Part shown: positions 37,709-53,924 of the stretch, piece by piece | How positions within the stretch are numbered: the stretch's first letter is position 1 | Layout: every line of letters starts with the position of its first letter | NCBI RefSeq assembly: GCF_012927455.1 | Contig: NZ_JABBPE010000002.1 | Span: forward strand, 248,001-312,000 | Reading direction: 5' to 3' | DNA: 64,000 bases | Source: Polaromonas sp. | Lineage (GTDB): Bacteria > Pseudomonadota > Gammaproteobacteria > Burkholderiales > Burkholderiaceae_C | Translations under genes and position numbers: made by a program | The notes under the pieces: model-generated | The model's database searches: none | What the model saw: only the letters and a program-made list of their open reading frames with translations | Told to the model about the DNA's origin: nothing

Positions 37709-38677
37709 TTAATTTCTTTCTGTATTCCAGGGTGTTGACTCAAATTTGCGCCAAAAGTGCCAAGACAGACTCAGCACGCCAACCGCGCAGGCTGCCAGCA
37801 TCCATGAAATGGTCCAGTCGTAAAAGAAACGGTATCCCATCCAGGTGCGCAGTTCCCGATACTCCAGCGTTCCATCGGCCAATGCGATGCGCTCACCGGG
37901 CTGCATTTCCCAGCGCGTTCCCTGATAACGCACGACAATTTTTCGCTGGTCCGGCAACTGAAAGCGCGAGGCGCGGTCCGACGGAATCAGGTTCTCTTCG
38001 ACGTTGAGCATTACCCAGATATCTTCTTTGCTGCCGGCCGGTCGCCAACTCTGCGCCTGTCCGGTGGCATTGGCCGGGTAGCTCGGCAAGTGGACCGCCG
38101 CCAGCAACGCCTCGCCGTTCACCGGACGCCACAAAAACAAAGGAGCAAAGCCCTTGTTGGAAGTGGGATAGATGCGGTATCCGAGCAGCACCAGCGGTTT
38201 ATTGATCTCTATCTCGCCAAAACGTTCCTCGCCATTGCTATCGTGCCAGCGCAGCCGGTTGATCAGCCGATCCAATATCGGGCCGGCCATGTAGGCGATC
38301 TCAAAGCCGTCGTTAACAAAATCAACTTCATCAATCCGCCCCATATGCAAAGGCCCTGCGTCCCGCGACTTCAAACCGGTAAAAGCCGCACCATCGGTGA
38401 CCTCGGCGGTCCCTTTCAAGTACATCAATTGGCCAGCAGCCGCCAGCAGCACCAGCGCGATCAGCGCCAGATGAAAAACCAACAGTGGCATTTGCCTGCG
38501 AAACACACCATTGGTAACGACCGCAGCGATCAGATTAATGGCCAGTAACAGCAGCGGCGCAGCCAGCCAGGGCGCGGCAGCCTGATCGAGCTTATAAACA
38601 GCGACAGAGGCGATACCAAGCAGCAGCAGTCCAACCGGTGTGAATTTGAGTGATGCCAGCGCCAGAATCAGTCGCAT
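37709..38677 (-). CDS. resB: ResB-like cytochrome c biogenesis protein
   Basis: A 322-residue ResB-domain membrane protein, partner of CcsA in System II. Helices lie near the N terminus (FTPVGLLLLGIASVAVYKLD, LLVFHLALIALVLLAAAGQL) and at the C-terminal end (WTISWMLAACAVGVLSLSWH). Between them is a periplasmic beta-rich domain with the family motif GYRIYPTSNKGFAPLF. Its start overlaps the stop of the 11-heme cytochrome gene by one base (TGATG), so its production is coupled to that cytochrome. Confidence 0.85.
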   Translation of the reverse strand: MRLILALASLKFTPVGLLLLGIASVAVYKLDQAAAPWLAAPLLLLAINLIAAVVTNGVFRRQMPLLVFHLALIALVLLAAAGQLMYLKGTAEVTDGAAFTGLKSRDAGPLHMGRIDEVDFVNDGFEIAYMAGPILDRLINRLRWHDSNGEERFGEIEINKPLVLLGYRIYPTSNKGFAPLFLWRPVNGEALLAAVHLPSYPANATGQAQSWRPAGSKEDIWVMLNVEENLIPSDRASRFQLPDQRKIVVRYQGTRWEMQPGERIALADGTLEYRELRTWMGYRFFYDWTISWMLAACAVGVLSLSWHFWRKFESTPWNTERN

Positions 38678-41274
38678 CAGGGCGGCGAGTCGCAGGTGTT
38701 TCTCATGCCGTCTCTACCACCGTTGCAATTGTTCTCCGTCCAGTTGCTACCGCTTGGGAAGGAAGTGACCTTAATGAAGGCCTTACGGTAATACGGCCCG
38801 TTGGTGTAGCCGACGTTCTGGGCGGGAGTCACCGAGGTGCCCGCCGCAAGCCCGGCTTCAGGTCCAACGTCGTTGAGGTTGGCCAGCAAACCGCGGTTCT
38901 TCCAGCCATGGGGGACCGCCACATGGCAATAATTGCACTTGATGCCGCCACCGATTTTGTCCGAATGTATCCCATGGCCGTCGCCCTTGTCGGTGCTGAA
39001 TCCGGTTCCACCGCCGTCCCTTGTCGCGTAATTAGTGGCATTGTGGCACTTGAAGCACAGAGCATCCGCTTGGCCTGTGCCGGTGGCGGCGTCATATTTT
39101 CCTTTAAGCAAAAAGTTGTTTTCCGAACCGTGCGGCCCCCAGGGTTTGCCGTTCTCGCTGGTGTTGGTGTTGCCCGCAGGCATAACAGTCCCCTGGCCCG
39201 TGGCCGAACCATGGCAGTCGGAGCAATACATGGTCTGAGTGCCGAGCGCCCCTGAATTGTTCCACGGCGGAAGCCACCTGCCTAAGCGGTTAACACCACG
39301 GCCGGTGGGCGCCATAACCGGGTGCCACGACCGGTGGTTGTTGTTGTTGGTCGTCGTAGCCACTGCAGAGGCGCCCGCGCCGCCATCGAAGCCGTTGCTG
39401 ACCGTGCCGACTGGAACAGCATGCGTTAAAGGCGCCTGGAACTCCTTGGCCTGATTGGTGTAACGCGTGAAGTTGTTATGACCGTTTGAATTTGGTGGCG
39501 TCAACCCCAAACCGCCGAGCAGCGGGCGCGTTGCACCGTTCGGATAGATGTTGTCATCCGCGTATGCGTAGTTGGAATGGCACTTCAGGCAGATCTGGTA
39601 TTCGCGCGTGACGTACTTTTCGCCCACCAGGTTGCTGGCACTTGCGCCAGGGTCCCCACGTTTGGCGTTAAAGCTCAGCGGCATTGACTGGAACGAATTT
39701 CCCCCGTAGACCGGCTCGACCCCAAACGATCCGCGCAGCACGCCGGAGATGACGTTGGTGTGCACATAGCCAGCGGCATCTTCATGGCGGTGAGTACCCG
39801 CCTTTTCGTTCGTATTGCCAGCGGAAAGAGGGCCCGGCAGCCCGTTTTGCGTCTTGATCACACGATGCGGATTGTGGCAATCGGAGCATTCAGCATGGCG
39901 GTTATTGGGATTATCCAGGCCGAGGCCGCTACGTGACTCCAGCAAGTCCTTGCCGCATTTGCCGGTAAGCTTGCTGCAATTGGTGTCGGGTCCATCGTTG
40001 AAAACACCACCGACGTTGTGCGTTTCGGTTCCTGCGGCCTGCTCGCTTGACTTGATAGGCATGTGTCGGCCGAGCGCGAAATCCGACTTGATATCCGGAA
40101 TTGCGTTCGAGGATTGCGTGATGTAGCTCACCGCTGAATCGGCGCTGGTGGTGTGGCATTGGTAGCAGGTTTCTTCGAGCGCGGCGGCGCCACCGATCTT
40201 TGGTTTAGCGGCACTGTCGGTGCCTTCGCGCAGCAAACGGCGTGCGCCCTGCACAGTGTGCGTGTCGTGGCAATTCAGACAGCCGACCTGCCAGACTGGC
40301 GGATTGGCATTGGCAGGAATTCCAATTGACGAAGGAAATTCACGCTGCTTTGCCGCCTCAGGCGTATAGGTCTGCGTTGCAACCAGACTGTTGGCGTGCG
40401 CCGAAAAGGCCCAGGCACTGCCGCCCTTGTCATGGCAAGCCAGGCAGATGATGTCATTGGTCGCACTGAAGGCGCCGCCGACAGGCTGGGTTACCTGAAA
40501 GCGATTCATGCGCAAAAATTTGGCGTTGCCGTTGGTGGTGGTCTTGTCGCGTAAATGCGGATCATGGCAAGTCGAGCACTGCATCTGGTTGTTTTCCAGC
40601 GGCAGTTGAGGTTTCGCGGCCCCGGTGACGCGATTCCCGACGAGTGAACCATCGGGACTACGCAACTCGCCGTCCAGATTGGCAAGTGCAGCGTTATACG
40701 TGAATGAAATCGGATGATCGGCACTCAGATCAGTCCCCAGATTGCGGGTAAAGCCAGTCGCCGCGTTGCCCGGCACCTTGACGGGTGTGGGTGTGTTCAT
40801 TGCAATCGTGGCGTTCTTCGCGCCATTGAGCGCATTGACTTTGTCGATGGCCATAGTGCCGTCATGGCAGGACAGGCAGAGCTTGGAACTGCCACCGGGC
40901 TGCGTAGCCAGTTCCGCCGCGTCGGCTTCCATTGAGGTGGAGGAGTAAAGCGTATAGGTCTGGCCGGACAATTTTCGGTTCCAGAGCGGCGCTCCTAGCG
41001 CAGTCGAGCCACCGCCAAAACTGATGGTTTCGGCTTCATGCGGTGTGTGGCAGAACACACAAACCTGCGTTTCCGAAGTCGCCTTTACGCTACGCGCCGG
41101 CACTGTGCCCCCAGATGGCGTAGCCGATCCGTCCGGCACGGCAGAGAAATTGTGTTTGGTTCCCCGCACGTCCGGAATTTTGTTAGTAGGAGCGATTTGG
41201 GCGTGCGTAAAGTTACCCACCAGCAGAAGAGCCAACATAAGCAAGGCCGCTGCAGGATATTTGGGTAACTGCAT
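38677..41274 (-). CDS. Undecaheme (11 CXXCH) cytochrome c
   Basis: An 865-residue secreted cytochrome with 11 CXXCH motifs: CVFCH, CLSCH, CSTCH, CLACH, CLNCH, CYQCH, CSDCH, CLKCH, CSDCH, CFKCH and CNYCH. A signal peptide ends NFTHAQ. The first 270 residues mirror the tetraheme cytochrome at 51617 (TKHNFSA, CVFCHTPHE, NLGTDLSADHPISFTY, CSTCHDPH), so it is that module plus a seven-heme extension. There is no lipobox, so it should be periplasmic or secreted. GGAGGTACC lies before ATG, which overlaps the propeller stop. A terminal or outer-surface electron transfer role is inferred. Confidence 0.93.
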   Translation of the reverse strand: MQLPKYPAAALLMLALLLVGNFTHAQIAPTNKIPDVRGTKHNFSAVPDGSATPSGGTVPARSVKATSETQVCVFCHTPHEAETISFGGGSTALGAPLWNRKLSGQTYTLYSSTSMEADAAELATQPGGSSKLCLSCHDGTMAIDKVNALNGAKNATIAMNTPTPVKVPGNAATGFTRNLGTDLSADHPISFTYNAALANLDGELRSPDGSLVGNRVTGAAKPQLPLENNQMQCSTCHDPHLRDKTTTNGNAKFLRMNRFQVTQPVGGAFSATNDIICLACHDKGGSAWAFSAHANSLVATQTYTPEAAKQREFPSSIGIPANANPPVWQVGCLNCHDTHTVQGARRLLREGTDSAAKPKIGGAAALEETCYQCHTTSADSAVSYITQSSNAIPDIKSDFALGRHMPIKSSEQAAGTETHNVGGVFNDGPDTNCSKLTGKCGKDLLESRSGLGLDNPNNRHAECSDCHNPHRVIKTQNGLPGPLSAGNTNEKAGTHRHEDAAGYVHTNVISGVLRGSFGVEPVYGGNSFQSMPLSFNAKRGDPGASASNLVGEKYVTREYQICLKCHSNYAYADDNIYPNGATRPLLGGLGLTPPNSNGHNNFTRYTNQAKEFQAPLTHAVPVGTVSNGFDGGAGASAVATTTNNNNHRSWHPVMAPTGRGVNRLGRWLPPWNNSGALGTQTMYCSDCHGSATGQGTVMPAGNTNTSENGKPWGPHGSENNFLLKGKYDAATGTGQADALCFKCHNATNYATRDGGGTGFSTDKGDGHGIHSDKIGGGIKCNYCHVAVPHGWKNRGLLANLNDVGPEAGLAAGTSVTPAQNVGYTNGPYYRKAFIKVTSFPSGSNWTENNCNGGRDGMRNTCDSPP

Positions 41275-42350
41275 CAGGTACCTCCTAAAAGCTGAAAAAT
41301 AGCAATCCGTCCATTGAACATATCGGCCACATAAATTCGTCCACGCGGGTCACTCCAGACGCCGGCCGGCAAGTAGAACTGGCCCACTTCTTTTCCGGTT
41401 CCACCGAGAGGCATCAAAAAGCTTCCTTCGCTGTTGAACACCAGTAAATTGTCGTAAAAAGATTCCACCACGTAAATGTTGCCTGAAGCATCCACCGTCA
41501 CGCCCTTGGGCCGGGTGAAATTGCCAATAAACAGCCCGCGCTGCCCAAGCGTTCCTGTCACCTGACCCCGTGTGTCGTAGATTTGAACGCGAGCATTCAT
41601 GCCGTCGGTCACGTACAGCTTGTCGGCGGCAAAAGCCAGATGGGTCGGAAAGTTCAGTTCACCTTCGCCCTCCCCGCGATGGCCTATGGTTTCCAGCAAA
41701 ATACCGTTGTCATCAAAGACCTTGACGTCATGCGCGTGGGTATCAGACACGTAGATCCGGCCGCGTTGCGCATCGCGCGCCAAACCAGTGGGCCGCGTCA
41801 ATACACCCTGGCCAAAACTTCCGATCGGCTTGCCTTCCCGGTCCAGGCGAAACACACCACCCAATTCGGCATCGGCGACCAGAATCTGCCCGCCCGCACC
41901 CATGGCGATCCCTATGGGCGTGACGAATCGTTTGTTTGGCATAGCCCGGTTCCACACCAGCAACTTGCCAGCCGCCTGGTCAAACACAAACACCGCATGG
42001 TTGCTGACGTCGGTGACGTAGATGCGGCCGTCGGCATCAACCGTCCCGCTTTGTGGCCGCTTTAATGCGGTACGGTCCTCGTCACCATCGAACAGCCCGA
42101 CCAGCCAGGCCAGCACTTTCATGCCCTTGCTGCGTGTATCACCTGTTTCGGGGACGAAATTCTGTTCACCGACCAATTCGCCAACATAACCGTAGCGAGG
42201 CGTTTCCGGAGCTGCCGGCCAGGTTGCCGTCGTACCGCCAGCCCGCTGCTCCGGGTCGAAGCGCATGACGTATTTGGTCTCGGCACAGCCGGACAGCGCC
42301 AGCCACGACGCGAGCAATAGCAAAAATGGACCGAAAATCAGCCTATTCAC
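41274..42350 (-). CDS. NHL-repeat propeller lipoprotein 1
   Basis: A 358-residue lipoprotein. The likely start is GTG at 42350 (VNRLIFGPFLLLLASWLALSGC), since the lipobox LSGC then falls at residue 22; the track ORF begins 48 codons earlier. Six NHL-type blades follow, such as GQFYLPAGVWSDPRGRIYVAD and RPKGVTVDASGNIYVVE. The start overlaps the next upstream gene by eight bases. NHL propellers are regular members of multiheme-cytochrome loci and may scaffold filament or complex assembly. Confidence 0.82.
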   Translation of the reverse strand: MNRLIFGPFLLLLASWLALSGCAETKYVMRFDPEQRAGGTTATWPAAPETPRYGYVGELVGEQNFVPETGDTRSKGMKVLAWLVGLFDGDEDRTALKRPQSGTVDADGRIYVTDVSNHAVFVFDQAAGKLLVWNRAMPNKRFVTPIGIAMGAGGQILVADAELGGVFRLDREGKPIGSFGQGVLTRPTGLARDAQRGRIYVSDTHAHDVKVFDDNGILLETIGHRGEGEGELNFPTHLAFAADKLYVTDGMNARVQIYDTRGQVTGTLGQRGLFIGNFTRPKGVTVDASGNIYVVESFYDNLLVFNSEGSFLMPLGGTGKEVGQFYLPAGVWSDPRGRIYVADMFNGRIAIFQLLGGT

Positions 42351-43347
42351 TTGAGGAAGCCTTCTTTTGGGGAGGTGCGATGCGAAATATTTGGATGCGC
42401 GCATGCACACTGTCCGCAACATGAAGCATGTTTTGTTCCACCCACAAGCCAGTGATGCGGTTGAAACTGGGCGGTACCGCACCACCGCCGACAAAGCTTG
42501 TCAGCAATTCCCCATTTTCAAAGACTTTGATCGTATTGTCGAAACTGTCACTTACAAAAACGCGGTTAAAGCGGTCAACTGCAATAACGCCAGGCATTTT
42601 CAATAAACCGGAACCAAGCGTATATCGATCCCGCCCGTCTCGACCGATGACCACAATTTTGCGGCCAACACGGTCGACAAGGTACAGGCCATCAGGTCCG
42701 CTCGCCAGCGCTTCGATACTTCGGCTCTCATCAGAGCGAAGGACCGACAAGACGCGGCCCAGGCTATTAAAAACGACGACATGATTGCGCAAACTATCGG
42801 CGACCAGCACCTCCCCATTGGACGCGTCCACCAGAACCCCAACGGGACGAGCGATCTCAAGCGCATTGTCAAAGCTGCGCAGCAGTCTGCCATCTACAGA
42901 GTAGTGCAACACCTTTTGCGACCCAATGTCGGCCACATAAAGTGACAGGTCCGACGCGACCGCGATGTTGCCCATTGCCCCGCCAGCATAGTCAGCAAAC
43001 GAGGTCATGCTCTGCTGGGCGGTGTCATAGCGATAGATCTTTCGGCGACCGGCATCGGCCACAAAGACGTAATTGCCACGCGCTGCCACCGCAGCAAGAG
43101 ATATCCACTGAAGATTTCCGGAAAAGTCGGGCTTGCGTGCAAAGGGGCTCAGCGGATCGGGAAGCGCACTGACGCGCGCACCTGTCAACGTTGACCAATG
43201 CGTCAACAACGATTGCTTACCCGCTTCGCCACTGGAACGCGGCGCTGATGGCGATGCGGCGCAGCCCAGCGTCAACGCACCGGCCCCAAACAGCATACCG
43301 AGGCACCATGCGCGGCGAGGGTGAAGAAGCTCGGATTTTTTCATCAT
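42343..43347 (-). CDS. NHL-repeat propeller lipoprotein 2
   Basis: A 334-residue lipoprotein: the signal MMKKSELLHPRRAWCLGMLF leads to lipobox TLGCAAS near residue 29. Blades include RPVGVLVDASNGEVLVADSL and MPGVIAVDRFNRVFVSDSFD. It is more divergent than the other two NHL proteins. It lies between a triheme cytochrome and NHL protein 1, all on one transcript. Confidence 0.82.
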   Translation of the reverse strand: MMKKSELLHPRRAWCLGMLFGAGALTLGCAASPSAPRSSGEAGKQSLLTHWSTLTGARVSALPDPLSPFARKPDFSGNLQWISLAAVAARGNYVFVADAGRRKIYRYDTAQQSMTSFADYAGGAMGNIAVASDLSLYVADIGSQKVLHYSVDGRLLRSFDNALEIARPVGVLVDASNGEVLVADSLRNHVVVFNSLGRVLSVLRSDESRSIEALASGPDGLYLVDRVGRKIVVIGRDGRDRYTLGSGLLKMPGVIAVDRFNRVFVSDSFDNTIKVFENGELLTSFVGGGAVPPSFNRITGLWVEQNMLHVADSVHARIQIFRIAPPQKKASSSE

Positions 43348-43380: not shown

Positions 43381-43815
43381 CTACCACTTCCCCGGGCCCG
43401 TTGTGGAGTCGCCGCCATAGATGCCACTGGGCAGGCCAGGTTTTCCTGAATGGCACAAGTCGCAATTCGCCGCCCCCCATGCGACCTGGTCGTTATGGCA
43501 CATGCCGCAAAACTTGCCATTGATGATGTCGGACATCAACACATCGTTGCTCCCAGCGCGCATCTTGAAGCCAAGTTCGGAATGACAGACTTTGCAGCGA
43601 AAGCGGATGCGATGAAACCAATGCGGAAAAACCACCGGTCGAACACCCTCTTTTTCTGCGCGCTTGTTTAGCACCACATCTCCATATTCGGCATGCACCG
43701 GAATAGAGACGGCAGCCAGCCAGAGCGCAAGCGCACTGCCCAGCGCGCACTTGACCAAGTGTGTGCACCTTGTCGCGCCCCTGCTGTATTTGCGCCAGAG
43801 ACAGACGGCTTTCAT
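43381..43815 (-). CDS. Triheme c7-type cytochrome (type A, downstream copy)
   Basis: A 144-residue periplasmic cytochrome. Signal peptide ends IPVHAEYGDVV. Heme motifs CKVCH, CGMCH and CDLCH are preceded by the family strand FPHWFHRIRFRCKVCHSELGFK. Close homologue of the gene at 47872 (same order and same flanking His). ATG overlaps the stop of the type B triheme gene (ATGA). Confidence 0.92.
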   Translation of the reverse strand: MKAVCLWRKYSRGATRCTHLVKCALGSALALWLAAVSIPVHAEYGDVVLNKRAEKEGVRPVVFPHWFHRIRFRCKVCHSELGFKMRAGSNDVLMSDIINGKFCGMCHNDQVAWGAANCDLCHSGKPGLPSGIYGGDSTTGPGKW

Positions 43816-44345
43816 TTCCGCTCCACGCTATGGCAACGCTTGCACTCGGTCAGCGGAAAAGAAACCGCTCCGTGACACACGCCGCAATATTCGCCTTGCA
43901 GTATCTGAAACATGTTCATCTGCTTGGTGCCACCGGCCTTGGACTTGAACAGCTGCTCATGGCAATTGCTACAGTCCAGCCATTCGGTATGCTGCTTGTG
44001 GGGGAAGCGCACCATAGGCATTTCGCCGGTGCGCGGCATGATCACATCCTGATCCAACACCTTGATCTTGGTATCCGGCAAGATATTGGTTCGCGGAGCG
44101 ATCAGGCCCTGCTCAAGCGCCTGAACCCAACGGACGCGATTGCCCACCGCATCGGGAGGCAGTTTTGCCAGCGCCTCTGCAGGTTCCTGCAGTAGCTTGA
44201 TAGCAGGATTGGCGGGATCATGCACGCCGTCTTTGGCCAAGGGAAGGCGGTCAGCAGCCAAGGCGGCGCCTGCAAACAAACACGCGGTCACGACCCAAAG
44301 CCGGATTGATATGCTGCGAAGGATGTGCCCTGAAAGCATCGACAT
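43812..44345 (-). CDS. Triheme c7-type cytochrome (type B)
   Basis: A 177-residue exported cytochrome. The track ORF has 102 unrelated extra residues; ATG at 44345 opens a signal peptide ending ALAADRLPL. After a 90-residue heme-free part (KDGVHDPANPAI, VGNRVRWVQALEQG) come FPHKQHTEWLDCSNCHEQLF, CGVCH and CKRCH. The same layout forms the C-terminal half of the hexaheme protein at 46268, showing duplication. Confidence 0.92.
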   Translation of the reverse strand: MSMLSGHILRSISIRLWVVTACLFAGAALAADRLPLAKDGVHDPANPAIKLLQEPAEALAKLPPDAVGNRVRWVQALEQGLIAPRTNILPDTKIKVLDQDVIMPRTGEMPMVRFPHKQHTEWLDCSNCHEQLFKSKAGGTKQMNMFQILQGEYCGVCHGAVSFPLTECKRCHSVERK

Positions 44346-44361
44346 GACCGCCTCTATTTTT

Positions 44362-45306
44362 CTATCCTGGAATATAGACACCAGCACTGCGGATGGCGCG
44401 CACCAACTCTTTGGTCGAGTCCTCCAACAGCTTGACCCCCGACTCGTAATCTTTCTTGGCCGCCATCCCTTCGGCATTTCCGCGTAAAACCGCCGCCTGT
44501 TCAAGGGACTTCTGCACCATCCCATCGAGTCCCGCATTACTGGCACGCTTCTCATCAAGCAAGACCTTGACCAGCATCTTGTGCGTATCGTTGCGATCAA
44601 CCTCGTAGCGATACTCTTCTTCCTTGCTCGCAAAATTAAGCGAACGCACAAGGGTATCGCCTTCGCGCAAACCTTCTATTGCCTTTCTGGCCGTTACATA
44701 AACTTTATCAAGCAAGACGCGGCCCTGGTCGATTTTTCCGGCGGCGGCAAGCGCGGCGGCTTCGCGTGCCTGCGCTTCCATCGCGCTTGTGTTTTCCGCG
44801 CCCTTTGAGCCCTGATTCTTTTCCGTATTTATGCGCTTCAATGCTGCCAGCAAGGCCTTTACACTCTCCATACGCCCGTCAAAGTCGCTTTTATCTTTCG
44901 CCCCGGTGACCTGTCCCGGAGAAGCCAGATGAACACCCTCAAACATCAGTTTTGCTGCCTGATCCAGCATGCGGGACGCTTCAACAGCGTTGCCCGCCTT
45001 GTACGCATCTTCTGCCTGCTTACGCAATTCACGCGCTTTAACGCGCAAAGCAAGAGCCTCAGGGACCGCACTACTTTCAATCTGCTTCGCAGCCGACGAT
45101 TTTTCAATCAATGTTGAAACCGATGCCAAACGGCGCTCTAACTGCTCCTTGTCCTCCGGCGTGCGGGCAGGACGTGCTGCGGGTACGGCAGGCGGATTGA
45201 CAACCTGCGCCGGTTCGGCGGCGCCCGCTGATGCCATGGGTAGACTGGCACTCCACAGCATCAGCATCATGCTTTTTTTGAGATTTTTTTTCATAATAGA
45301 CTTCAC
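44362..45306 (-). CDS. Helical periplasmic protein of the cytochrome cluster, paralogue 2
   Basis: A 314-residue protein of unknown function. Signal peptide ends ASAGAAEPA. The rest is almost entirely charged alpha helix with heptad-like patterns (RRLASVSTLIEKSSAAKQIE). It ends with GDTLVRSLNFASKEEEYRYEVDRND and VRAIRSAGVYIPG, which match the neighbour at 45303. No heme motif. It starts inside the end of that neighbour (ATGA overlap). A spacer, adaptor or chaperone role in a periplasmic complex is only a guess. Confidence 0.75.
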   Translation of the reverse strand: MKSIMKKNLKKSMMLMLWSASLPMASAGAAEPAQVVNPPAVPAARPARTPEDKEQLERRLASVSTLIEKSSAAKQIESSAVPEALALRVKARELRKQAEDAYKAGNAVEASRMLDQAAKLMFEGVHLASPGQVTGAKDKSDFDGRMESVKALLAALKRINTEKNQGSKGAENTSAMEAQAREAAALAAAGKIDQGRVLLDKVYVTARKAIEGLREGDTLVRSLNFASKEEEYRYEVDRNDTHKMLVKVLLDEKRASNAGLDGMVQKSLEQAAVLRGNAEGMAAKKDYESGVKLLEDSTKELVRAIRSAGVYIPG

Positions 45307-46271
45307 GGAGGGACCTCGGATGAATGCGGTACGACCACTCCAGCAATGCGCAATGAGCGCTGCAAATGGCTGGTCGCGCCTTCTATCGTTTTCACGGCAG
45401 CGATGTAGTCTTGACCGCTTGCCTGCTTCTGCGCAATAACGCGAAGGTCGCGGCTCTGCTGCGCGTAGTGCTCGGCAACTACAGCCGTTTCACGCACCGT
45501 ATTGAGCTGTGCGATGGCGATCGGAATCAATTCTTCGTAACTGCGGTTGCGAGCCAATTCGTGTCTAAACTCCTCAGCCGGCAAATCGAACTTCAGCCCG
45601 TACACAATTGTTTCTGCCGCAAGTATCTTATTCAATGTCGCGACGACGCTCTGGTAGGCGCTATTCAATACCACGTTAGCTTCGTCCTGATTGCCACCCA
45701 GAATCAGCGCGTCGGCCTTGTCCACCATGCCGTCAATTCGGTCGACATCGGCAACGACCGTGGAGGCCTGCAGTTTTTTGGGGGACATGCGGCTTGAAAG
45801 GCCCTTTTGCTGCATTTGAAACGTACGTATCGCTTCGCGCAATTGCGTATTGCGGCTGCGTTTTTGCGCAAGCTGTTGCACAGGATCAGGTACCAGAGAT
45901 GATGCTGCAGCGATTTGCCGCAACGACTCATCGAGTAGCAGCATCGCAGCTTCCCCGCGACTGGCATTGAACTCGGTTTCCGCCTTTGCATACCGAGCCT
46001 GTGCCTCAGCCAGTTTCCTTTTCGCTTGAGCGTTGTTGCTCTGGGGTATGCGCAGGACTGCCGGTGATAGCGACAGCAATTGCTTGACCAATCGCAGTTT
46101 GCGCTCCAGCGTCGCACGGAAAGAATTGGCGCGGACCTCGACGCCGCCTGTCGCATCGGGTTTGGCAAGTACAACAGAAACCGGTTCGGCAGCCGCGGCC
46201 GCATCCGCAGCCGCACCAGCCAGCATCAGACCGAACCATGCAAAAGACGCGGTTATCCGAAAATTTCTCAT
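45303..46271 (-). CDS. Helical periplasmic protein of the cytochrome cluster, paralogue 1
   Basis: A 322-residue exported protein with start at 46271 (MRNFRITASFAWFGLMLAGA); the track ORF is 33 residues longer. Long helices dominate, with AETIVYGLKFDLPAEEFRHE and SLRIAGVVVPHS shared with paralogue 2. No CXXCH, no enzyme motif. Its ATG overlaps the hexaheme stop. Both paralogues sit between two matching pairs of triheme genes. Confidence 0.75.
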   Translation of the reverse strand: MRNFRITASFAWFGLMLAGAAADAAAAAEPVSVVLAKPDATGGVEVRANSFRATLERKLRLVKQLLSLSPAVLRIPQSNNAQAKRKLAEAQARYAKAETEFNASRGEAAMLLLDESLRQIAAASSLVPDPVQQLAQKRSRNTQLREAIRTFQMQQKGLSSRMSPKKLQASTVVADVDRIDGMVDKADALILGGNQDEANVVLNSAYQSVVATLNKILAAETIVYGLKFDLPAEEFRHELARNRSYEELIPIAIAQLNTVRETAVVAEHYAQQSRDLRVIAQKQASGQDYIAAVKTIEGATSHLQRSLRIAGVVVPHSSEVPP

Positions 46272-47863
46272 GGCTTGGCTGCCGCCTTCACAACTGGCGT
46301 TTTGGTCTTCGAATGGCAACGACGGCAGTCCGATACTGGAAAAGCAACTTTGCCGTGGCAAACGCCACATTTCTGACCGAGCAGAATGGCCGCCATGCTG
46401 ATCTGGTTAGCGCCCTTTTGCGGGATAAAAATTGCAGGATGACAGTTCGAGCAATCCAGCCACTGCGTGTGCTCTTTGTGGGGATAGACCACATCTGGCA
46501 TCGAGCCTTTGACTTCACGCACGATGTTCATGTCCATCACCATCGGCTTGGCATTCGGGTCGATGCGGTCAAAGCGCGGATTGATCTTGTTTTCATTGAG
46601 AGACTTGACCCAGTCCACCCGATTCCCATCATTGCTCTTGGTCAGCGCCCCGAACGCGGCCAGCGGCGGCTGCAGCGACAGCGTGCCGTCGTTCGCGGGG
46701 TCGTGAATGCCATCTTCAGCCGGTGGCAGGTTTCGCTTTGCTGCCGGCTGCATGAGTCGATTAAAGGTATTCACACCGCCTGCGGCTGCAACCGTTGGTG
46801 GACCTGCAGGGGCTGCGGCCGCGGGTGGTGCTTCAGCTGGGGCCGCAACCGGCGCTGCAGCTGCGATTTTGGTCGAAGCATCTGCCGGTGGCGCGGCGGC
46901 CTCGACGCTCTTCGCGCCAGAACCCGATTGACTGACGATGTATTTGACCGCAGACTGCATTTCGGCATCGGTCAGCTTGGCGTTTCCGCCTTTTGCTGGC
47001 ATCGCGCCCTTGCCCTTGGTTGCATTGGCGACCATAGCAGCCTGACCGGCTTTGATGCGTGGCGCCCATGCAGCAGCGTCGCCAAGTTTGGGCGCACCCG
47101 CCGCGCCAGTTGCATGACAAGCTCCGCAGGTGCTGTCGTAAACAGCCTTGCCGTTAGCATCTCCACCGGCCGCAGCCACCACCGCTGGCGCCGCAGGGGC
47201 TGACGGAGCAGCCGCCTCGGCATTCTTCGTACCAGAACCCGATTGACTGACGATGTATTTGACCGCAGACTGCATTTCGGCATCGGTCAGCTTGGCGTTT
47301 CCGCCTTTTGCTGGCATCGCGCCCTTGCCCTTGGTTGCATTGGCGACCATAGCAGCCTGACCGGCTTTGATGCGCGGCGCCCATGCGGCAGCGTCGCCGA
47401 GTTTGGGCGCACCCGCCGCGCCGGTCGCATGACAAGCACCGCAGGTACTGTCGTAGACAGTCTTGCCGTTGGCATCGCCACCGACCGCAGCTACAACCGC
47501 GGGCGCACCAGCTGCTGCTGGGGCGGCCGCCTCGGCACTCTTCGCGCCCGAACCCGATTGACTGACGATGTAATTTACCGCAGCCTGCACCTCGGCATTG
47601 GACAAGCTGGCGTTTCCGCCTTTTGCCGGCATCACGCCCTTGCCTTTGATGGCGCTGGCAACCAGAGCTTTTGAACCGGCCTTGATACGCGGCGCCCACG
47701 CAGCAGCATCACCCAGCTTGGGCGCGCCCGTAGCGCCCGTGCCATGACAGGCGACACAGGTGCGGTCGTAAATGGCTTTTCCGTCTGGCGGGCTCGCTGC
47801 ATTGACCTGCACACAGAGCAGCGACAACAAAACTGCCCCAAGCCGCACAATTAATTTATTCAT
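46268..47863 (-). CDS. Hexaheme fusion cytochrome: three c5-like domains plus triheme type B
   Basis: A 531-residue exported cytochrome; ATG at 47863 opens a signal peptide ending CVQVNAAS. Three monoheme domains come first (CVACH, CGACH, CGACH), joined by Ala/Pro linkers. Domains two and three are nearly identical (TCGACHATGAAGAPKLGDAA in both). Axial Met candidates sit in KGAMPAKGG. The C-terminal part is a triheme type B domain (CSNCH, CGVCH, CRRCH). It is a beads-on-string carrier that could bridge the periplasm. Its upstream neighbour is the type A triheme gene, eight bases away. Confidence 0.93.
   Translation of the reverse strand: MNKLIVRLGAVLLSLLCVQVNAASPPDGKAIYDRTCVACHGTGATGAPKLGDAAAWAPRIKAGSKALVASAIKGKGVMPAKGGNASLSNAEVQAAVNYIVSQSGSGAKSAEAAAPAAAGAPAVVAAVGGDANGKTVYDSTCGACHATGAAGAPKLGDAAAWAPRIKAGQAAMVANATKGKGAMPAKGGNAKLTDAEMQSAVKYIVSQSGSGTKNAEAAAPSAPAAPAVVAAAGGDANGKAVYDSTCGACHATGAAGAPKLGDAAAWAPRIKAGQAAMVANATKGKGAMPAKGGNAKLTDAEMQSAVKYIVSQSGSGAKSVEAAAPPADASTKIAAAAPVAAPAEAPPAAAAPAGPPTVAAAGGVNTFNRLMQPAAKRNLPPAEDGIHDPANDGTLSLQPPLAAFGALTKSNDGNRVDWVKSLNENKINPRFDRIDPNAKPMVMDMNIVREVKGSMPDVVYPHKEHTQWLDCSNCHPAIFIPQKGANQISMAAILLGQKCGVCHGKVAFPVSDCRRCHSKTKTPVVKAAAKP
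46925..47840 (-). repeat. 315-bp tandem repeat encoding the c5-like domains
   Basis: The anchor ACTGACGATGTA occurs at 46931, 47246 and 47561, giving an exact 315-base (105-codon) period. The first two units by coordinate are almost identical at DNA level; the third is more diverged. Confidence 0.85.
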
Positions 47864-47871
47864 GATGCGTC

Positions 47872-48321
47872 CTATTTCTTCTGCTGGGTTTGCGGCTTCG
47901 CAGGCGCAGCTGCGGCAGCCGGCGCCACCAGCGAATTGATGGTGCTTTGGTGCACCTGGGTCGGCGTGCGGGGTTTGCCGGAGTGGCACAGGTCGCAATT
48001 TTCTACCGACCACGCTATGCTGCCGTTGTGACAAGCGCCACAATACTGGCCATCAATAATCTTGACCATGTCAATTTCATTGCCGCCCGCTTTGAACTTG
48101 AAGCCCAGGTCGGCGTGACATACTTTGCAGCGAAATCGGATACGGTGAAACCAATGAGGAAATACGGCAGGTCGCATGCCAGCAGCATCGGAATAGTTGT
48201 TGATGACAATGTCACCATACTCGGCGTTAGCCGTCTGCATGGTGAACAGGCCGCCCACCAAGATCATAAGTATTAGCAGCCCCCTTTTGATGGCTGAGCC
48301 GTATATCTTCAACGTTATCAT
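47872..48321 (-). CDS. Triheme c7-type cytochrome (type A, upstream copy)
   Basis: A 149-residue exported cytochrome. ATG at 48321 has AGAGGA upstream; the track start is 16 codons earlier. Signal peptide ends TANAEYGDIV. Heme motifs CKVCH, CGACH and CDLCH follow FPHWFHRIRFRCKVCHADLGFK. It has an extra Pro/Ala/Gln-rich tail (APAKPQTQQKK) not seen in the copy at 43381. Confidence 0.92.
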   Translation of the reverse strand: MITLKIYGSAIKRGLLILMILVGGLFTMQTANAEYGDIVINNYSDAAGMRPAVFPHWFHRIRFRCKVCHADLGFKFKAGGNEIDMVKIIDGQYCGACHNGSIAWSVENCDLCHSGKPRTPTQVHQSTINSLVAPAAAAAPAKPQTQQKK

Positions 48322-48365
48322 TCCAATAATCCTCTCATAGATACCAAAAGCAAAAATCAAAAGAC

Positions 48366-50444
48366 TCAAAACGTGCGAGTCACGGAAAATAATATGGACC
48401 GGTTCAGGGTCGTGGCGCGCTGCACGGCTGCTGTAGTGGCCCTGGGGACGGAGTTTCTCGCTATCAGCATGTTCAACCTCAACTGGGTGCGCCCAATTGA
48501 GTAGTCAAAACGGTTTTCCCATGCCGCGGTTTCCTGGTCTTGCGGGCCGCCCAGCAGCGGCAGCAATGCCTGACTGTTCAGCCGCAGGTCCGATACGAAG
48601 CGCAGACGCCGGACGCCGAATACGCGTTGGTGTTGATAGGTCAATGAACCGCCGGAGGTCGTTACAAAACCATGCTGCTCGCTGGAGTTCTGTTGCAGGA
48701 TTCCCAGCTCGGTCGTGTTACCAAGGATCGCGAATTCTTGACGCACCCCTTGAATAGTAAGATTTCCGGTCCACGAGCTGTACTCGCCAGTCGGCAGATT
48801 GCTTGACGCCTGCAAATTGATAAGCTGGAAAAACTCCTTCCGGCCGCTTACGGTGCGCGAATCACTCGCACTGAGCCGTATCATCGCGTCCCCTGGCTCC
48901 TTGCTAATGTTCCATGACAAGGAACCGCTGTGGGTCAATCGCAAGGTCGATCCGGAATCCTCGCTGAAAGTACCGTCACTCAAAGTAGTGCGATTTGAAT
49001 TTCCGCTGCTCGCCACAGCTGCAACGCTTTGCGACAAGTCCATAGAAACCGTCGATATCGGGCTGACAGTGAAACTGCGACTCAGGCCGTGGCTCAATTG
49101 CAGGGAGACCTGACGGCTTGCCTCTTCGCTGCCCGTGGTGTTGGTAAAGCTGCTCCCGGCGGACCAGTTGTAGCGGAACTTGCCCAGCTCGGTGAAATCG
49201 GGTTGATAGGTTGCACCGATGGTTTGATTCGTGTTGTTGCTTCGCAGTCCGTTAGTTGTAATCAGATTTACATTGGCGCCCGCATTGAGTCGGGTAAATC
49301 TGCTGAGTTCGTAGTTGATGCCCAGATTGACGTTCGCGTTGCTGTTGCGGGCTCCAGCAGAGTTGCCGTCAAATCCAAAACTGGTATCGCGAAAGCCAGT
49401 GCTGTCAGATGCCAGCGTGAACAGCCGGGCACCGCCAGTAACCGTCAACGGCTGATCGTCCGGGCGCCAGAAAGCCAGAGTACTCAGTTGCGTAATGCGG
49501 GTGTTATTGTCCCCACTTACAAGGTGATAGTTGGACCGACTGATGTTGCTCATGCTCTCCACCGAAAGTGACGAGCTCGGTGTGTAGCTGTGCTGTAAGG
49601 TCAAATTGTTTTGAACCGCAGACTCATCAGTATCCTCATGCGTGTTGACCGAGCGGTTGCCAATCAACTGCATGCGCTGATTTTGCAGCGCGTGCGAAAT
49701 ACTCAGTTGCCAACTGTCTTGCTGGTCGCGACCATTCAGGTCGCTGTCTTGCGTGCTACGGTCCCAGCCAAACATCGAGTCGCCCTGCGACTGTGTGTAA
49801 TGCTGAGAAAAGCCGTAGCGTTGACTGGCGTACCCATTGCCGATAGCCAGTTGGCTGGAGATACGGCTGTCATTGCGATTGAAATGCGCTTCGAACGGAA
49901 ATCGGCTTTGCGGCAGTATCGACAATTGTCCGCCGCCGGTCAGAATGACGTTGCGGCTTTTGTTGCTATTGCTGTTGCCGAACTCCGTCGCATTGCTGTC
50001 GCTGCTGGACTTTGCAAACGTCAGTCCGACGTTGCCGGTCAGTTGCGAAAACCACGGCTGCCAAATAAAAGTTTGGGTACTGGCGTTCAGCGTCGTGCTG
50101 AATCCATGCTGCGTCCTGGTTTGATCTCCAACGGTATCGCGCCTAAGGTCGTAGGACACCGCGCCGCCAATGCGCACCGGGGGCAAGGCCCAAACGTTTC
50201 CCTGTGTCGTTTCTCCATCAGCAGTGCCGCCACTCTGCAAAGGCCCCGGTTGCTCGATAGGACCGGAATCTCTATTTTGTGAAGCCCCATCCGCTGAAGG
50301 CAAGGCCGAGCGACCTACACCCGGCCACAGCAAAGCCACCACTGCCATCAACAAAGTCGGCGAGAAGACCCCATGCTTTACCAGTCGATCAGACACACTA
50401 CACCTTGCTTGTTTAAGCAGGCACAACCACGCGCCTGCCGGCAT
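48366..50444 (-). CDS. Outer-membrane beta-barrel protein (putative cytochrome conduit or secretion channel)
   Basis: A 692-residue exported protein. A hydrophobic segment (SPTLLMAVVALLWPG) near residues 28-42 serves as signal peptide; a GTG at 50396 is a reasonable alternative start. From about residue 90 it is built of alternating amphipathic strands with Ser/Asn/Thr-rich loops and ends in SILFSVTRTF, a typical barrel-insertion strand with final Phe. No CXXC motif of MtrB type is visible. Lying between the prolyl isomerase and cytochromes, it is the best candidate for the pore through which electrons or cytochromes cross the outer membrane. Confidence 0.8.
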   Translation of the reverse strand: MPAGAWLCLLKQARCSVSDRLVKHGVFSPTLLMAVVALLWPGVGRSALPSADGASQNRDSGPIEQPGPLQSGGTADGETTQGNVWALPPVRIGGAVSYDLRRDTVGDQTRTQHGFSTTLNASTQTFIWQPWFSQLTGNVGLTFAKSSSDSNATEFGNSNSNKSRNVILTGGGQLSILPQSRFPFEAHFNRNDSRISSQLAIGNGYASQRYGFSQHYTQSQGDSMFGWDRSTQDSDLNGRDQQDSWQLSISHALQNQRMQLIGNRSVNTHEDTDESAVQNNLTLQHSYTPSSSLSVESMSNISRSNYHLVSGDNNTRITQLSTLAFWRPDDQPLTVTGGARLFTLASDSTGFRDTSFGFDGNSAGARNSNANVNLGINYELSRFTRLNAGANVNLITTNGLRSNNTNQTIGATYQPDFTELGKFRYNWSAGSSFTNTTGSEEASRQVSLQLSHGLSRSFTVSPISTVSMDLSQSVAAVASSGNSNRTTLSDGTFSEDSGSTLRLTHSGSLSWNISKEPGDAMIRLSASDSRTVSGRKEFFQLINLQASSNLPTGEYSSWTGNLTIQGVRQEFAILGNTTELGILQQNSSEQHGFVTTSGGSLTYQHQRVFGVRRLRFVSDLRLNSQALLPLLGGPQDQETAAWENRFDYSIGRTQLRLNMLIARNSVPRATTAAVQRATTLNRSILFSVTRTF

Positions 50445-50471
50445 GACCTAACGGTGCCCCGTGCCCTCCAA

Positions 50472-51521
50472 TTACTTTGACTTTGCCTTTGCCTTTGCCA
50501 GCGGCAGAAAACCCGACTGATCAACCTCCGCCGGGGTTTTTTTCTTCAGATCTGCCACGAAGGTGTTCCATGCCGCCTCGCTCTGATCTCTTTGCGCCAA
50601 TTCCTGCGCACGCACCTTGACCTCGTCAAACGGGTGTGCCTGTGCTGGTTTGCGATCAACCATTCGAAACACGGCGATTCCCTCCAGCAAGCGCAACGTC
50701 TCCGTGGTCTCGCCGGCCTTTAGTTTACTAAGCACCTCCTGAGTACCGTCGGGCAGCATGCCTTCGTGCAGGTAACCCATGTCGCCGCCCTGCTTGGCAG
50801 AGGGGTCCGCCGAATGCTTGCGCGCCAGCTCTGCAAAATCGGCACCGCCGCGCAATAGCTTGACTAGACTTTTCGCTTCTTCATCGGTCTTGACCCATGT
50901 CTCTTTTGGCGACGATGGATCGACCTTCAACAATATTGCTGAAACACGAAGCTTCTCAGGCTCGGTGAATTTTTCGGGATGCTTGAGAAAATACGTTTTC
51001 GCATCCTTCACGTCAGCCTTGACATTGGCGCGCGTTGCGGCCTCAAGCTGACCCAGAATGTTGTCTTCTTCCAGACGCGCTGTGAGGCCCGGCAGCACTT
51101 GCGCACGGTTCTTTTTCCACTGCTCGCTGTTGGCATAACGCTGCTCATAAGTCTGCATAGTCTTCTGAATTTCGGCAGCATCCGGGCGCAGGCCGCGCCG
51201 TTTGGCTTCGCGCAGCAGCAGCACGCGCGCAACCAGCTTGTCGCCTACTTCACGTTGCAGCACTGCGATTTCGTTCTCAGGCGGTTTGCCGTGATAGAAC
51301 TTGCCGCGCGAGGCGGTACCGAAAGCTTCGTCGTATTCTTTGCGGGTAATGACCGTGTCGCCTACCTTGGCGAACACACTGTTCGGCCCGGCTGTGCTGC
51401 CGGCTTTGGCCGGAGTTGCAGAAGCTGCTGGAGCTGCTGGAGCTGCAACAATATTGCTGGTGCCCAGCATAGCGAACGACAGCATAGCTGCGTTGCATAG
51501 ATATTTTTTCGCTATTCTCAT
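50472..51521 (-). CDS. Periplasmic parvulin-type peptidyl-prolyl isomerase
   Basis: A 349-residue SurA/PpiD-like chaperone. Start at 51521 has AAAGG upstream; signal peptide ends NIVAAPAAP. An N-terminal helical SurA-like region (residues 50-185) precedes a parvulin domain with KLRVSAILLKVDPSSP, GGADFAELARKHSADPSAKQ and GGDMGYLHEGML. The C-terminal tail is basic. It is placed directly after the tetraheme cytochrome gene, suggesting a dedicated folding factor. Confidence 0.9.
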   Translation of the reverse strand: MRIAKKYLCNAAMLSFAMLGTSNIVAAPAAPAASATPAKAGSTAGPNSVFAKVGDTVITRKEYDEAFGTASRGKFYHGKPPENEIAVLQREVGDKLVARVLLLREAKRRGLRPDAAEIQKTMQTYEQRYANSEQWKKNRAQVLPGLTARLEEDNILGQLEAATRANVKADVKDAKTYFLKHPEKFTEPEKLRVSAILLKVDPSSPKETWVKTDEEAKSLVKLLRGGADFAELARKHSADPSAKQGGDMGYLHEGMLPDGTQEVLSKLKAGETTETLRLLEGIAVFRMVDRKPAQAHPFDEVKVRAQELAQRDQSEAAWNTFVADLKKKTPAEVDQSGFLPLAKAKAKSK

Positions 51522-51563
51522 ATTCAAGAAACCTTTCGTTCTCGGGCAAAACCTGCCCCAAAC

Positions 51564-51594
51564 AAGAGGGAGACAAGATGCTTGTCTCCCTCTT
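51564..51594 (-). terminator. Strong intercistronic hairpin after the tetraheme gene
   Basis: AAGAGGGAGACAAG and CTTGTCTCCCTCTT form a perfect 14-bp stem with a 3-base loop, 22 bases after the cytochrome stop and 42 bases before the isomerase ATG. Only GTTTG follows, so partial termination or 3'-end protection is likelier than full termination. Confidence 0.7.
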
Positions 51595-51616
51595 AGGTGC
51601 CTTAGCAATCCACTAT

Positions 51617-52489
51617 TTATTTAATGTGGCAAGCCAGGCAAACTGCGCTGTTGGTATTGGCAACACGCAGGAAAGTCGGGTTCTCGCTATGGGGGTCATG
51701 GCAGCTCGCGCATTCAACCAGAGCCTGGTTGCCAGTAGCCCCGGGGACCGGGCTGGTACCAGTTGCAAGACGGGTGTAAAGCTGCATGTCGGTCTTCTCA
51801 CGAGTGCCGGCAGCTCCGGTCCCTGGAGTATCAACCCACCAGACGTCATTACCGTTCAGGTTTGACCACTGGACGCCACGGAAATCTTTATCCCTGAATC
51901 CGCCGTCTGCGACTGCGGCTGCAGGATACGCAATGTTTCCGGGCATACCGCCACCATACTGAATACCGATCGGATGATCGTTCCTCAGATCCGTTCCAAT
52001 ATTGGTAATAACCCCTGCACCAATTTTGCCGTCGGCGGTCAGGTTTCCTTGACCAGTCACGGGAGTGATGTTGAGGCCAGCAACTGTAGTGCCTGATCCA
52101 GGCTGATTGATCATCACGTTCATGGCCTGCCCGCCATCATGACAGGACAGACAAGCCAGCGAAACCGAACCTACCGGAGCCGTCGCTCCGTCTAAGCTGG
52201 AAGTGCCCAGACTGTTGTAGGTCTGATATGTAGTCGGCGCCGCCAGAACACGATTCCACAAAGGCACAGCGGCGGAGATATCCGCGCCGTGCGGCGTATG
52301 GCAGAACACGCAGATTTCCTGGGTACCGGTAAACTTGTTAGCACCAGTACCGAGGGCTCCAAGGTTGTGCTTGGTATTAGCAATACCCGCCAACGCCGGC
52401 GCACTGCCCAGCACTCCCAGCGCCAGCAACGCAGTGGCTACGCCACCTGCCCAGCGCGCTCGCCCATCTTTAAATAAACTCATTTTCAT
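51617..52489 (-). CDS. Secreted tetraheme cytochrome c, candidate filament subunit
   Basis: A 290-residue exported cytochrome. Signal peptide ends SAPALAGI. Heme motifs are CVFCH (60-64), CLSCH (113-117), CASCHDPH (260-264) and CLACH (284-288). The protein stops two residues after the last motif (CLACHIK), a terminal layout like that of OmcS-type filament cytochromes. Additional His residues (TKHN, NDHPIG) can ligate hemes. It is paralogous to the first 270 residues of the 11-heme protein. It is the first gene of the minus-strand cluster, behind a consensus FNR-type box and a -24/-12-like promoter, and followed by a strong hairpin that could raise its mRNA level. Confidence 0.92.
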   Translation of the reverse strand: MKMSLFKDGRARWAGGVATALLALGVLGSAPALAGIANTKHNLGALGTGANKFTGTQEICVFCHTPHGADISAAVPLWNRVLAAPTTYQTYNSLGTSSLDGATAPVGSVSLACLSCHDGGQAMNVMINQPGSGTTVAGLNITPVTGQGNLTADGKIGAGVITNIGTDLRNDHPIGIQYGGGMPGNIAYPAAAVADGGFRDKDFRGVQWSNLNGNDVWWVDTPGTGAAGTREKTDMQLYTRLATGTSPVPGATGNQALVECASCHDPHSENPTFLRVANTNSAVCLACHIK

Positions 52490-52572
52490 GATTTCCTAAC
52501 CTACCTTTCTTGGTAACCACGTTTTCAAGACCACTCTCTCCAACCCGGATTGTTTAAGTACACCTTAAAGCA

Positions 52573-52588
52573 TGCAAATAACAGGCCA
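52573..52588 (-). promoter_or_regulatory. Candidate sigma-54 promoter of the tetraheme operon
   Basis: Minus strand TGGCCTGTTATTTGCA. GG-GC spacing is 12 and the -12 half TTGCA is perfect; the -24 half differs at two positions. A sigma-70 class II promoter using the nearby FNR box is an alternative. Confidence 0.45.
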
Positions 52589-52597
52589 AGTGCCTAC

Positions 52598-52611
52598 TTG
52601 ATCCACATCAA
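52598..52611. promoter_or_regulatory. FNR/ANR-type binding site before the tetraheme gene
   Basis: TTGATCCACATCAA is a perfect TTGAT-N4-ATCAA palindrome, about 110 bases before the tetraheme start. It predicts control by a Crp/Fnr protein, such as the one at 57644. Confidence 0.75.
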
Positions 52612-52732
52612 GGAATTTCTGTGACACACTGATTTTTCTACGCATCGGCACCTCCCTAATTCCTGAAAACGAGAATCACATCCCAAAGACTGGAAACTTC
52701 TCCGGGCAGAGGAGGGGCTTTAAACCACACAG

Positions 52733-53842
52733 CTACTTTTTCGCCGCGGCTTGCTTCTTCACTGCGAAGCCGGCATCGGCCGCGAGTTTGGCGGGCCGGT
52801 AAATGTCTACCTTGCGATAGAACTGGTCGACCACATAGACTCGGCCGTCACCATCAATCGCGATGCCTGAGGGAAGCAGGTATTTCGCCATACCGTCCTT
52901 TTCCGCACGGTTACCCACTGACAGCAACAACTTGCCATCGGGTGTAAAAATCTGAAAGTTACCGAATGCGCTGTCGACGATATAGACATTGCCGTCCGGG
53001 TCAGTGGCAACTTCCTTGGGTCGGGAAAATTGCCCGCCCTGCCTTCCTATGCCACCAAACACCCGGACAAACGTACCGTCTGACTTAAACACTTGCACAC
53101 GGAAATTGGCGCCATCAACGACGTACAGCAAGCCGTCTTTTCCAATTGTCACGTCTCTCGGCAAATTGAACTCTCCCGGGGCCGAACCGCGCTTACCGAT
53201 GTCGAGCAAGTGCTTGCCGCTTTGCGCGTCGAACACACGCACCCGATGGTTTTCGCTGTCGATGCCGCCGGCATCTACTACGTAAATCCGGCTTCCCTCT
53301 GCGTCCACCGCAATGCCCACCGGCCGGGAGAACATTTTCGCCTCGCCTACAGTACGCAGGAATTTACCGTCCTTGTCGTACACCTGAACATGTTTGGCGG
53401 AACTGTCGACCACATACAGATTGCCCTGACCATCGACGTCAAGACCCAACGGCGTCTCCAGTCGGCCCAACTCGTCCTCGCCGATCTTGAAATAGCGCTG
53501 ATTCGGGATATCGAATACCGAGACATAGCGAAGGGCCGTGTCACTGACAAAAACACGACCATGGAAGACCGCAACACCATACGGCTTACCCATGCCTTCG
53601 CCAATCCTGGGTTCGCCGGTAAACAGCCGCCTTAAATTGGCATTCTTGTCTTCAGCAACGACATCAGCGCTGGTGTAAATGGAGCGTTCAAAAAAGAACC
53701 GCGCTTCGTCGGGCGGCGGCGGAAACACCGGAATTTCCTGCTCTTTGAGAGACTGCTGTGGCAGCGCGCAACCCGCAACGAGCACTACGAAAATCAGTTG
53801 AAGGATGCCCAGGGAGGTTTTGCTGGAAGTTGGAATTCTCAT
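52733..53842 (-). CDS. NHL-repeat propeller lipoprotein 3
   Basis: A 369-residue lipoprotein. ATG at 53842 has GAAGGAAAG upstream; the track ORF is 43 codons longer. Lipobox LVAGCALPQ follows a good signal. Six NHL blades, for example TPLGLDVDGQGNLYVVDSSA, RPKEVATDPDGNVYIVDSAF and LPSGIAIDGDGRVYVVDQF. It resembles NHL protein 1 and is transcribed from its own promoter region ahead of the tetraheme gene. Confidence 0.85.
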   Translation of the reverse strand: MRIPTSSKTSLGILQLIFVVLVAGCALPQQSLKEQEIPVFPPPPDEARFFFERSIYTSADVVAEDKNANLRRLFTGEPRIGEGMGKPYGVAVFHGRVFVSDTALRYVSVFDIPNQRYFKIGEDELGRLETPLGLDVDGQGNLYVVDSSAKHVQVYDKDGKFLRTVGEAKMFSRPVGIAVDAEGSRIYVVDAGGIDSENHRVRVFDAQSGKHLLDIGKRGSAPGEFNLPRDVTIGKDGLLYVVDGANFRVQVFKSDGTFVRVFGGIGRQGGQFSRPKEVATDPDGNVYIVDSAFGNFQIFTPDGKLLLSVGNRAEKDGMAKYLLPSGIAIDGDGRVYVVDQFYRKVDIYRPAKLAADAGFAVKKQAAAKK

Positions 53843-53908
53843 TTTCGTCTTTCCTTCGTCAGGTTGTGGCGGACACAACCGCAAAACGGTTGTGAGAGGG
53901 CACTTGCA

Positions 53909-53924
53909 AGCAAACACCGTACCA
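53909..53924 (-). promoter_or_regulatory. Candidate sigma-54 promoter of NHL protein 3
   Basis: Minus strand TGGTACGGTGTTTGCT matches TGGCACG-N4-TTGCW with one mismatch. The predicted start is about 55 bases before the ATG. Confidence 0.65.

Follow-up and report, generated by a model that had tools for sequence, protein, structure and literature searches.

An OmcE-family cytochrome in a uet operon of Polaromonas sp.: a candidate system for cytochrome wires

We analysed a stretch of 64,000 nucleotides from Polaromonas sp. (contig NZ_JABBPE010000002.1, positions 248,001 to 312,000; here called the window), with a focus on a gene for a tetraheme cytochrome and the genes around it. The gene block at 38677-53842 on the minus strand represents a uet (undecaheme electron transfer) operon, a betaproteobacterial copy of a cluster that has already been named, and its tetraheme protein UetA is, by sequence comparison, a homologue of the filament-forming cytochrome OmcE of Geobacter sulfurreducens. 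The cluster is thereby a good candidate for making cytochrome wires. Uet itself being known, the link to OmcE is among the points of interest, and the most interesting lead is that the undecaheme protein UetJ may serve as end subunit of such a wire.

The designation uetABCDEFGHIJ was introduced for Tenderiales ('Candidatus Tenderia electrophaga'; Eddie 2022 as cited in PMC10734462 and PMC12575090), and uet was also described in six Gallionella genomes (PMC10734462, PMC12575090). According to this description, UetA is a tetraheme cytochrome, UetB a peptidyl-prolyl isomerase (PPIase), UetC a barrel, UetD, UetE and UetG are trihemes, UetH and UetI NHL proteins and UetJ is an undecaheme cytochrome (PMC10734462); the trihemes, a TPR gene (uetF) and the undecaheme gene were reported for Tenderia (PMC5371394). 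Compared by published description, the locus analysed here contains tetraheme, PPIase, barrel, trihemes, TPR/helical protein, NHL pair and undecaheme in the same order as in Tenderiales and Gallionella, but differs by two F-like genes, an extra triheme gene, fusion of UetE to three monoheme domains and an upstream NHL lipoprotein gene. Gammaproteobacterial loci with the same order, e.g. L021 and L044 ('Biocath_Gamma_008'), are the nearest proxies for the Tenderia reference. In an initial annotation, the order NHL propeller, tetraheme cytochrome, parvulin and outer-membrane barrel had been noticed; all four genes are present on the minus strand at 48366-53842, and reading of the open reading frames (ORFs) added nine further genes down to 38677. 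The proposal made there of a betaproteobacterial counterpart of a filament system stands in so far as UetA is homologous to a solved filament cytochrome, has the full ligand set and is accompanied by PPIase, barrel and propeller, while its novelty was lost because the locus belongs to the described uet cluster. Since the window contains 44 CXXCH-type DNA patterns compared to 6.6 expected from shuffles, and since tens of other genomes share the gene order, the four-gene arrangement is not due to chance.

UetA and the OmcE family

UetA consists of 290 residues with CXXCH motifs at residues 60, 113, 260 and 284 and ends exactly two residues behind the last of them. By phmmer search against PDB chains, 9yuq (E=5.5e-27) was obtained as best match together with OmcE (7TFS; E=2.3e-25), and nothing else was found below E=0.2. 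A profile of 65 UetA sequences matched 7TFS with E=3.9e-39, both halves being aligned through the last residue including the final CxxCHxK, while the next cytochrome, 6r2q, reached 0.0055. The alignments to 7TFS and 9yuq begin at the N-terminal TKH, reach the final K and comprise non-heme residues such as PLWNR, TDLxNDHP and FLR. Chain N of 9yuq, annotated as 'putative multiheme cytochrome c' and present with 16 chains of one sequence, has the same ends and the same His residues as UetA; a literature search found no paper on this entry.

The sole invariant histidines across the 65 UetA sequences are His 41, 64, 67, 117, 172, 264, 267 and 288, four of them located within CXXCH (proximal) and four distal ones in TKH, CHTPH, NDHP and CHDPH. 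All eight align with histidines of OmcE, i.e. the ligands for four bis-His hemes are kept. UetA and OmcE thus have in common four CXXCH motifs, four distal His, the N-terminal TKH, the two-residue end and homology over both halves; their operon contexts differ.

For counts among relatives, the best 80 of 118 UetA relatives from a scan with one genome per species were kept. The initial annotation had pointed to the end of the tetraheme protein two residues after its last CXXCH, and indeed this tail with Lys as last residue was found in 80/80 relatives and likewise in OmcE and 9yuq. In the fetched loci, the tail is a family trait of OmcE/UetA: of 40 further multiheme ORFs carrying it, 36 belong to this family, and among 347 multiheme ORFs with other ends the UetA profile matched only four, all of them large with 11 or 18 hemes. 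OmcS, which had been named as a parallel, was rejected as a homologue and gives way to OmcE, because no OmcS chain was among the PDB matches of UetA at E<=1 and UetA has four hemes, not six; OmcS is also reported to have no sequence similarity to OmcE (PMC9473688).

UetJ, the barrel and the propeller partners

The N-terminal part of UetJ matched OmcE 7TFS with E=5.9e-18, and comparison of UetA with the UetJ N-terminus by hhalign gave a probability of 100 and E=4.5e-52. The OmcE-like match stops at the heme-4 motif CLACHDK, the point where UetA itself ends. All eight UetA-type His positions are present in 13/13 of the longer, UetJ-type sequences, and in the same 13/13 sequences the OmcE-like unit is followed by a heme-5 motif CxxCHDxH, which resembles the CHTPH of a following subunit. 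The 11 CXXCH motifs of UetJ fit the name 'undecaheme', and its architecture of an OmcE-like tetraheme unit plus seven hemes is new as far as the searched literature shows. From these sequence features, the unit may dock on a UetA chain through its N-terminal face; as its C-terminal face is probably already filled in cis, UetJ would be placed only at one filament end. We tentatively suggest that UetJ could be a chimera, with one OmcE-type filament subunit as its N-terminal third and a seven-heme contact domain behind it, that acts as anchor or cap and joins UetA filaments electrically to a cell-surface machine or ends their tip, in about one tenth of the sampled genomes of the class, although we would not expect this to be the case. 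In addition, loci L021, L027 and L031 each encode an 18-heme protein of the UetJ kind, which is about 800 residues long and has an OmcE-like unit.

For UetC, an AlphaFold2 model based on 54 relatives showed a barrel with 28 strands counted from residue 91 on (mean predicted local distance difference test score, pLDDT, of 84). The protein ends in Phe. Searches of UetC in Pfam and NCBIfam matched no family, and Foldseek gave only generic large barrels (TonB receptors, MtrB, LptD) at similarly low template modeling (TM) scores, with MtrB 6r2q_B at rank 4 (TM 0.34). UetC was also considered as a homologue of MtrB, but MtrB was not matched in the profile search and the likeness in fold is no better than for unrelated barrels. 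The model therefore indicates a large outer-membrane barrel that is not demonstrably an MtrB. MtrAB/MtoAB and PCC3 resemble uet in combining a large outer-membrane barrel with multiheme cytochromes (MHCs), whereas uet differs from them by a barrel outside the Pfam and NCBIfam families with no significant MtrB profile match and by an operon with no compact decaheme partner.

The genes uetB and uetC accompany uetA in 75/80 relatives, and the extra NHL gene adjoins uetA in 68/80. UetB, UetC and the NHL proteins may be filament assembly factors, forming an 'assembly module'. This role is assigned by analogy, as propeller and PPIase are found beside multiheme cytochromes elsewhere and as comparable roles were proposed for osc. 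In the osc operon of Geobacter, OscH has been proposed to act in the folding of OmcS, OscE, F and G in its secretion and OscD in morphology (PMC13194489). In outline, OmcS/osc resembles the uet system suggested here: a filament cytochrome is associated with partners for which such functions are proposed. The operons of SEEP-SRB/QYQD01 comprise a large MHC, a PPIase and a beta-propeller (PMC12246660) and thus show the same recurring trio; unlike in uet, their cytochromes have 12-26 hemes, and an OmcE-like subunit was not reported in PMC12246660.

Proposed wire assembly and competing explanations

We consider it reasonably probable that the uet operon serves to form an OmcE-type filament of UetA, with the partners acting in export and assembly and UetJ as end subunit; filament formation by UetA as such is likewise likely on the basis of homology. 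UetA would cross the inner membrane, receive four hemes, be folded with the aid of the PPIase UetB and then be handed to or through the barrel UetC. Outside the cell, its polymerisation would give a filament of OmcE type, each subunit contributing one distal His as ligand to a heme of its neighbour. Such ligation across subunits, with a His of one coordinating a heme of the adjacent one, is known from OmcE and OmcS filaments (PMC9473688, PMC12307469), and the helical rise of OmcE is 34 A (PMC12954529). The c7-type trihemes UetD, UetE and UetG (and G2) would ferry electrons over the periplasm, and the NHL lipoproteins may be an envelope scaffold or assembly factors. UetJ would be a special end subunit, the OmcE-like unit of which docks on the UetA filament while the seven-heme extension stops growth. 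It would be located either at the tip of the filament or at its base, where it would serve as anchor and connect the filament electrically to the barrel. The direction of electron flow could be inward, as has been proposed for the oxidation of iron or electrodes in Tenderiales and Gallionella, or outward.

Several points weigh against a UetA wire. The filament is predicted from homology and none has been seen; homologues of known wires need not be wire-forming (PMC12977616), and it is disputed which role cytochrome filaments have in physiology (PMC11077965). Between hemes 2 and 3, UetA contains about 50 residues more than OmcE, and beta strands are predicted in them. This beta-rich insert (~residues 180-250), which is missing from OmcE and from the UetJ unit, is the best-predicted part of the AlphaFold model of UetA and could change or block subunit packing. 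The heme-free (apo) model as a whole was poor (pLDDT 60), and Foldseek gave no useful fold match for it. Furthermore, with about 76 residues per heme, UetJ is not as compact as the MtrA-type wires found inside barrels.

Alternatively, uet may be read as a classical porin-cytochrome conduit, with UetC harbouring a cytochrome of the periplasm or the cell exterior (the trihemes, UetJ) and with UetA as a tetraheme electron acceptor or donor, soluble or bound to the surface, that does not polymerise at all. This would agree with the description of the Uet complex as a porin-MHC complex (PMC10734462), with the strand number of UetC, which is similar to that of MtrB, with the weak appearance of MtrB among the top fold matches and with the caution that not every homologue of a nanowire cytochrome is a nanowire. 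However, UetA retains every ligand His of OmcE and the exact C-terminal end, and an MtrA-like compact cytochrome (~33 residues per heme over ten hemes) does not occur in the operon, and we regard a conduit of this kind as unlikely. Possible, though still doubtful in our view, is that UetB, UetC and the NHL proteins act solely as a machine that secretes and folds UetA and UetJ and carry no electrons themselves, while the outer-membrane conduit is encoded elsewhere, e.g. by the Mtr/Mto-type cluster on contig C12. The barrel without heme motif, the separate decaheme MtrA/MtoA-type gene in the genome and the proposed folding and secretion of OmcS by Osc proteins (PMC13194489) argue for such a machine, which would be compatible with filament formation, whereas the periplasmic triheme carriers encoded right behind uetC suggest electrical continuity. 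That the OmcE likeness reflects just the generic doubled-CXXCH pattern of many multiheme cytochromes is very improbable: above the Pfam cut-off, UetA indeed receives only Paired_CXXCH_1, but its alignments to 7TFS and 9yuq run end to end with non-heme residues, the profile separates 7TFS clearly from 6r2q, and the few matches of the profile among the ORFs with other ends are restricted to proteins with 11 or 18 hemes.

Secretion and anchoring of cytochrome nanowires have been called still speculative (PMC12307469). With an OmcE-type subunit located beside its own PPIase, barrel, propellers and an undecaheme protein with an OmcE unit, the widespread uet operon offers named candidates for these functions, and as they occur in bacteria including isolated strains, they are open to testing. 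If UetA does form filaments, Uet would have to be seen as a possible wire-building system rather than as a simple porin complex, and filament-based electron transfer would be extended to betaproteobacteria.

Gene map, distribution and genomic surroundings

Table 1. Features of the uet region in the window.
Feature	Position	Strand	Evidence
NHL beta-propeller lipoprotein, third propeller of the cluster, just upstream of uetA	52733..53842	-	PF01436 NHL E=3.4e-31; lipobox LVAGC
Perfect FNR/Crp-type box TTGATGTGGATCAA, ~110 bp before the start codon of uetA	52598..52611	-	one of two perfect FNR boxes in the window
uetA, secreted tetraheme cytochrome, OmcE family, putative filament subunit	51617..52489	-	4 CXXCH; OmcE 7TFS match
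uetB, periplasmic parvulin-type PPIase, SurA-like N-terminal domain	50472..51608	-	PF00639 E=2.3e-14
uetC, outer-membrane beta-barrel, 28 predicted strands, without heme motif	48366..50444	-	AlphaFold2 pLDDT 84
uetD, c7-type periplasmic triheme cytochrome	47872..48369	-	TIGR04257 E=1.1e-17; 3 CXXCH
uetE, three class-I monoheme domains fused to c7-type triheme domain, 6 CXXCH	46268..48043	-	PF13442 x3, PF14522, TIGR04257
uetF-like secreted protein 1	45303..46370	-	position of uetF; synteny
uetF-like secreted protein 2	44362..45306	-	found in 51 fetched loci
uetG, c7-type triheme cytochrome	43812..44651	-	TIGR04257 E=7.1e-17
G2, additional c7-type triheme cytochrome	43381..43815	-	TIGR04257 E=7.3e-18; in 56 fetched loci
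uetH, NHL propeller lipoprotein	42343..43347	-	NHL/ScyF-type match; synteny
uetI, NHL propeller lipoprotein	41274..42494	-	NHL/ScyF-type match E=4.8e-39; synteny
uetJ, undecaheme cytochrome, 865 residues; residues ~35-283 OmcE/UetA-like tetraheme unit, 7 further hemes behind	38677..41274	-	11 CXXCH

The listed ORF start of uetE probably lies too far upstream. The ORF of the NHL gene upstream of uetA spans 52733-53971, and the likelier start is the ATG at 53842, with which the protein has a lipobox (VAGC). The two uetF-like proteins are helical, and searches in Pfam and NCBIfam gave no match for either of them.

In most loci of relatives with a sufficiently long contig, the genes D-E-F-G-H-I-J follow in this order. 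Relatives with uet synteny belong to Beta- and Gammaproteobacteria and Magnetococcales, and isolated strains carrying uet include Ramlibacter, Leptothrix, Aromatoleum and Dechloromonas. An even sample of the class (369 genomes) contained 51 genomes with a UetA match at E<=1e-20 and 39 with a full-length UetA (E<=1e-75), most of which had a second match in an ORF of ~800-960 residues of the UetJ type. In 36 congeners of the window's organism, uetA was not found (0/36). Near 28 kb, the GC content of the window falls from ~0.60-0.65 to 0.54-0.58 and remains low to the right end, cytochrome genes included. The missing uetA in congeners and the GC drop make a horizontal origin of the uet region plausible; plasmid-borne copies were looked for and none was found.

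In the same genome, an orphan second uetA (77% identical) is located at L091:14057-14911 and an orphan second uetJ (67% identical) at L092:6531-9083, and no further uet genes were found in the fetched stretches around these copies. On contig C9, 2-4 kb beyond the right edge of the window (L090:4859-6960), an NHL lipoprotein gene is followed by a five-heme gene of the OmcE family ending with CLTCHAK. Second OmcE-like genes near uet, mostly with four and some with five hemes, occur in about half of the fetched relatives.

Two perfect FNR boxes only were detected in the window, one upstream of uetA (Table 1) and one at 57510-57523 upstream of a Crp/Fnr regulator gene (57644-58336), which suggests oxygen-linked control. 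Boxes of the type TTGAY-N4-RTCAA were present upstream of uetA in 6/78 relatives compared to 0.12 expected. A general FNR box for all uetA genes was rejected given this small number, and the site upstream of uetA is therefore probably lineage-specific or degenerate. Elsewhere in the genome, RuBisCO and the MtrA/MtoA-type decaheme cytochrome gene of the cluster on C12 are encoded, which fits a lifestyle with extracellular electron transfer, iron oxidation or reduction, in either direction.

Immediately behind uetJ and on its strand (33368-38677), genes for ResB and two CcsA-type cytochrome c maturation proteins are followed by a thioredoxin-like gene; they possibly provide dedicated heme loading for the uet operon. 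Inside this maturation block, 34736-36928 encodes a COX1-type membrane protein (heme-copper oxidase or nitric oxide reductase-like) fused to a TPR domain, and a pair of sensor histidine kinase and sigma-54 response regulator (29776-32786) adjoins the maturation genes. Across the right edge of the window, ORFs were read as a CcmE-CcmF-DsbE-CcmH maturation set. Divergently to the operon, on the plus strand at 53947-56793, two larger proteins with three CXXCH motifs each and a small monoheme cytochrome are encoded.

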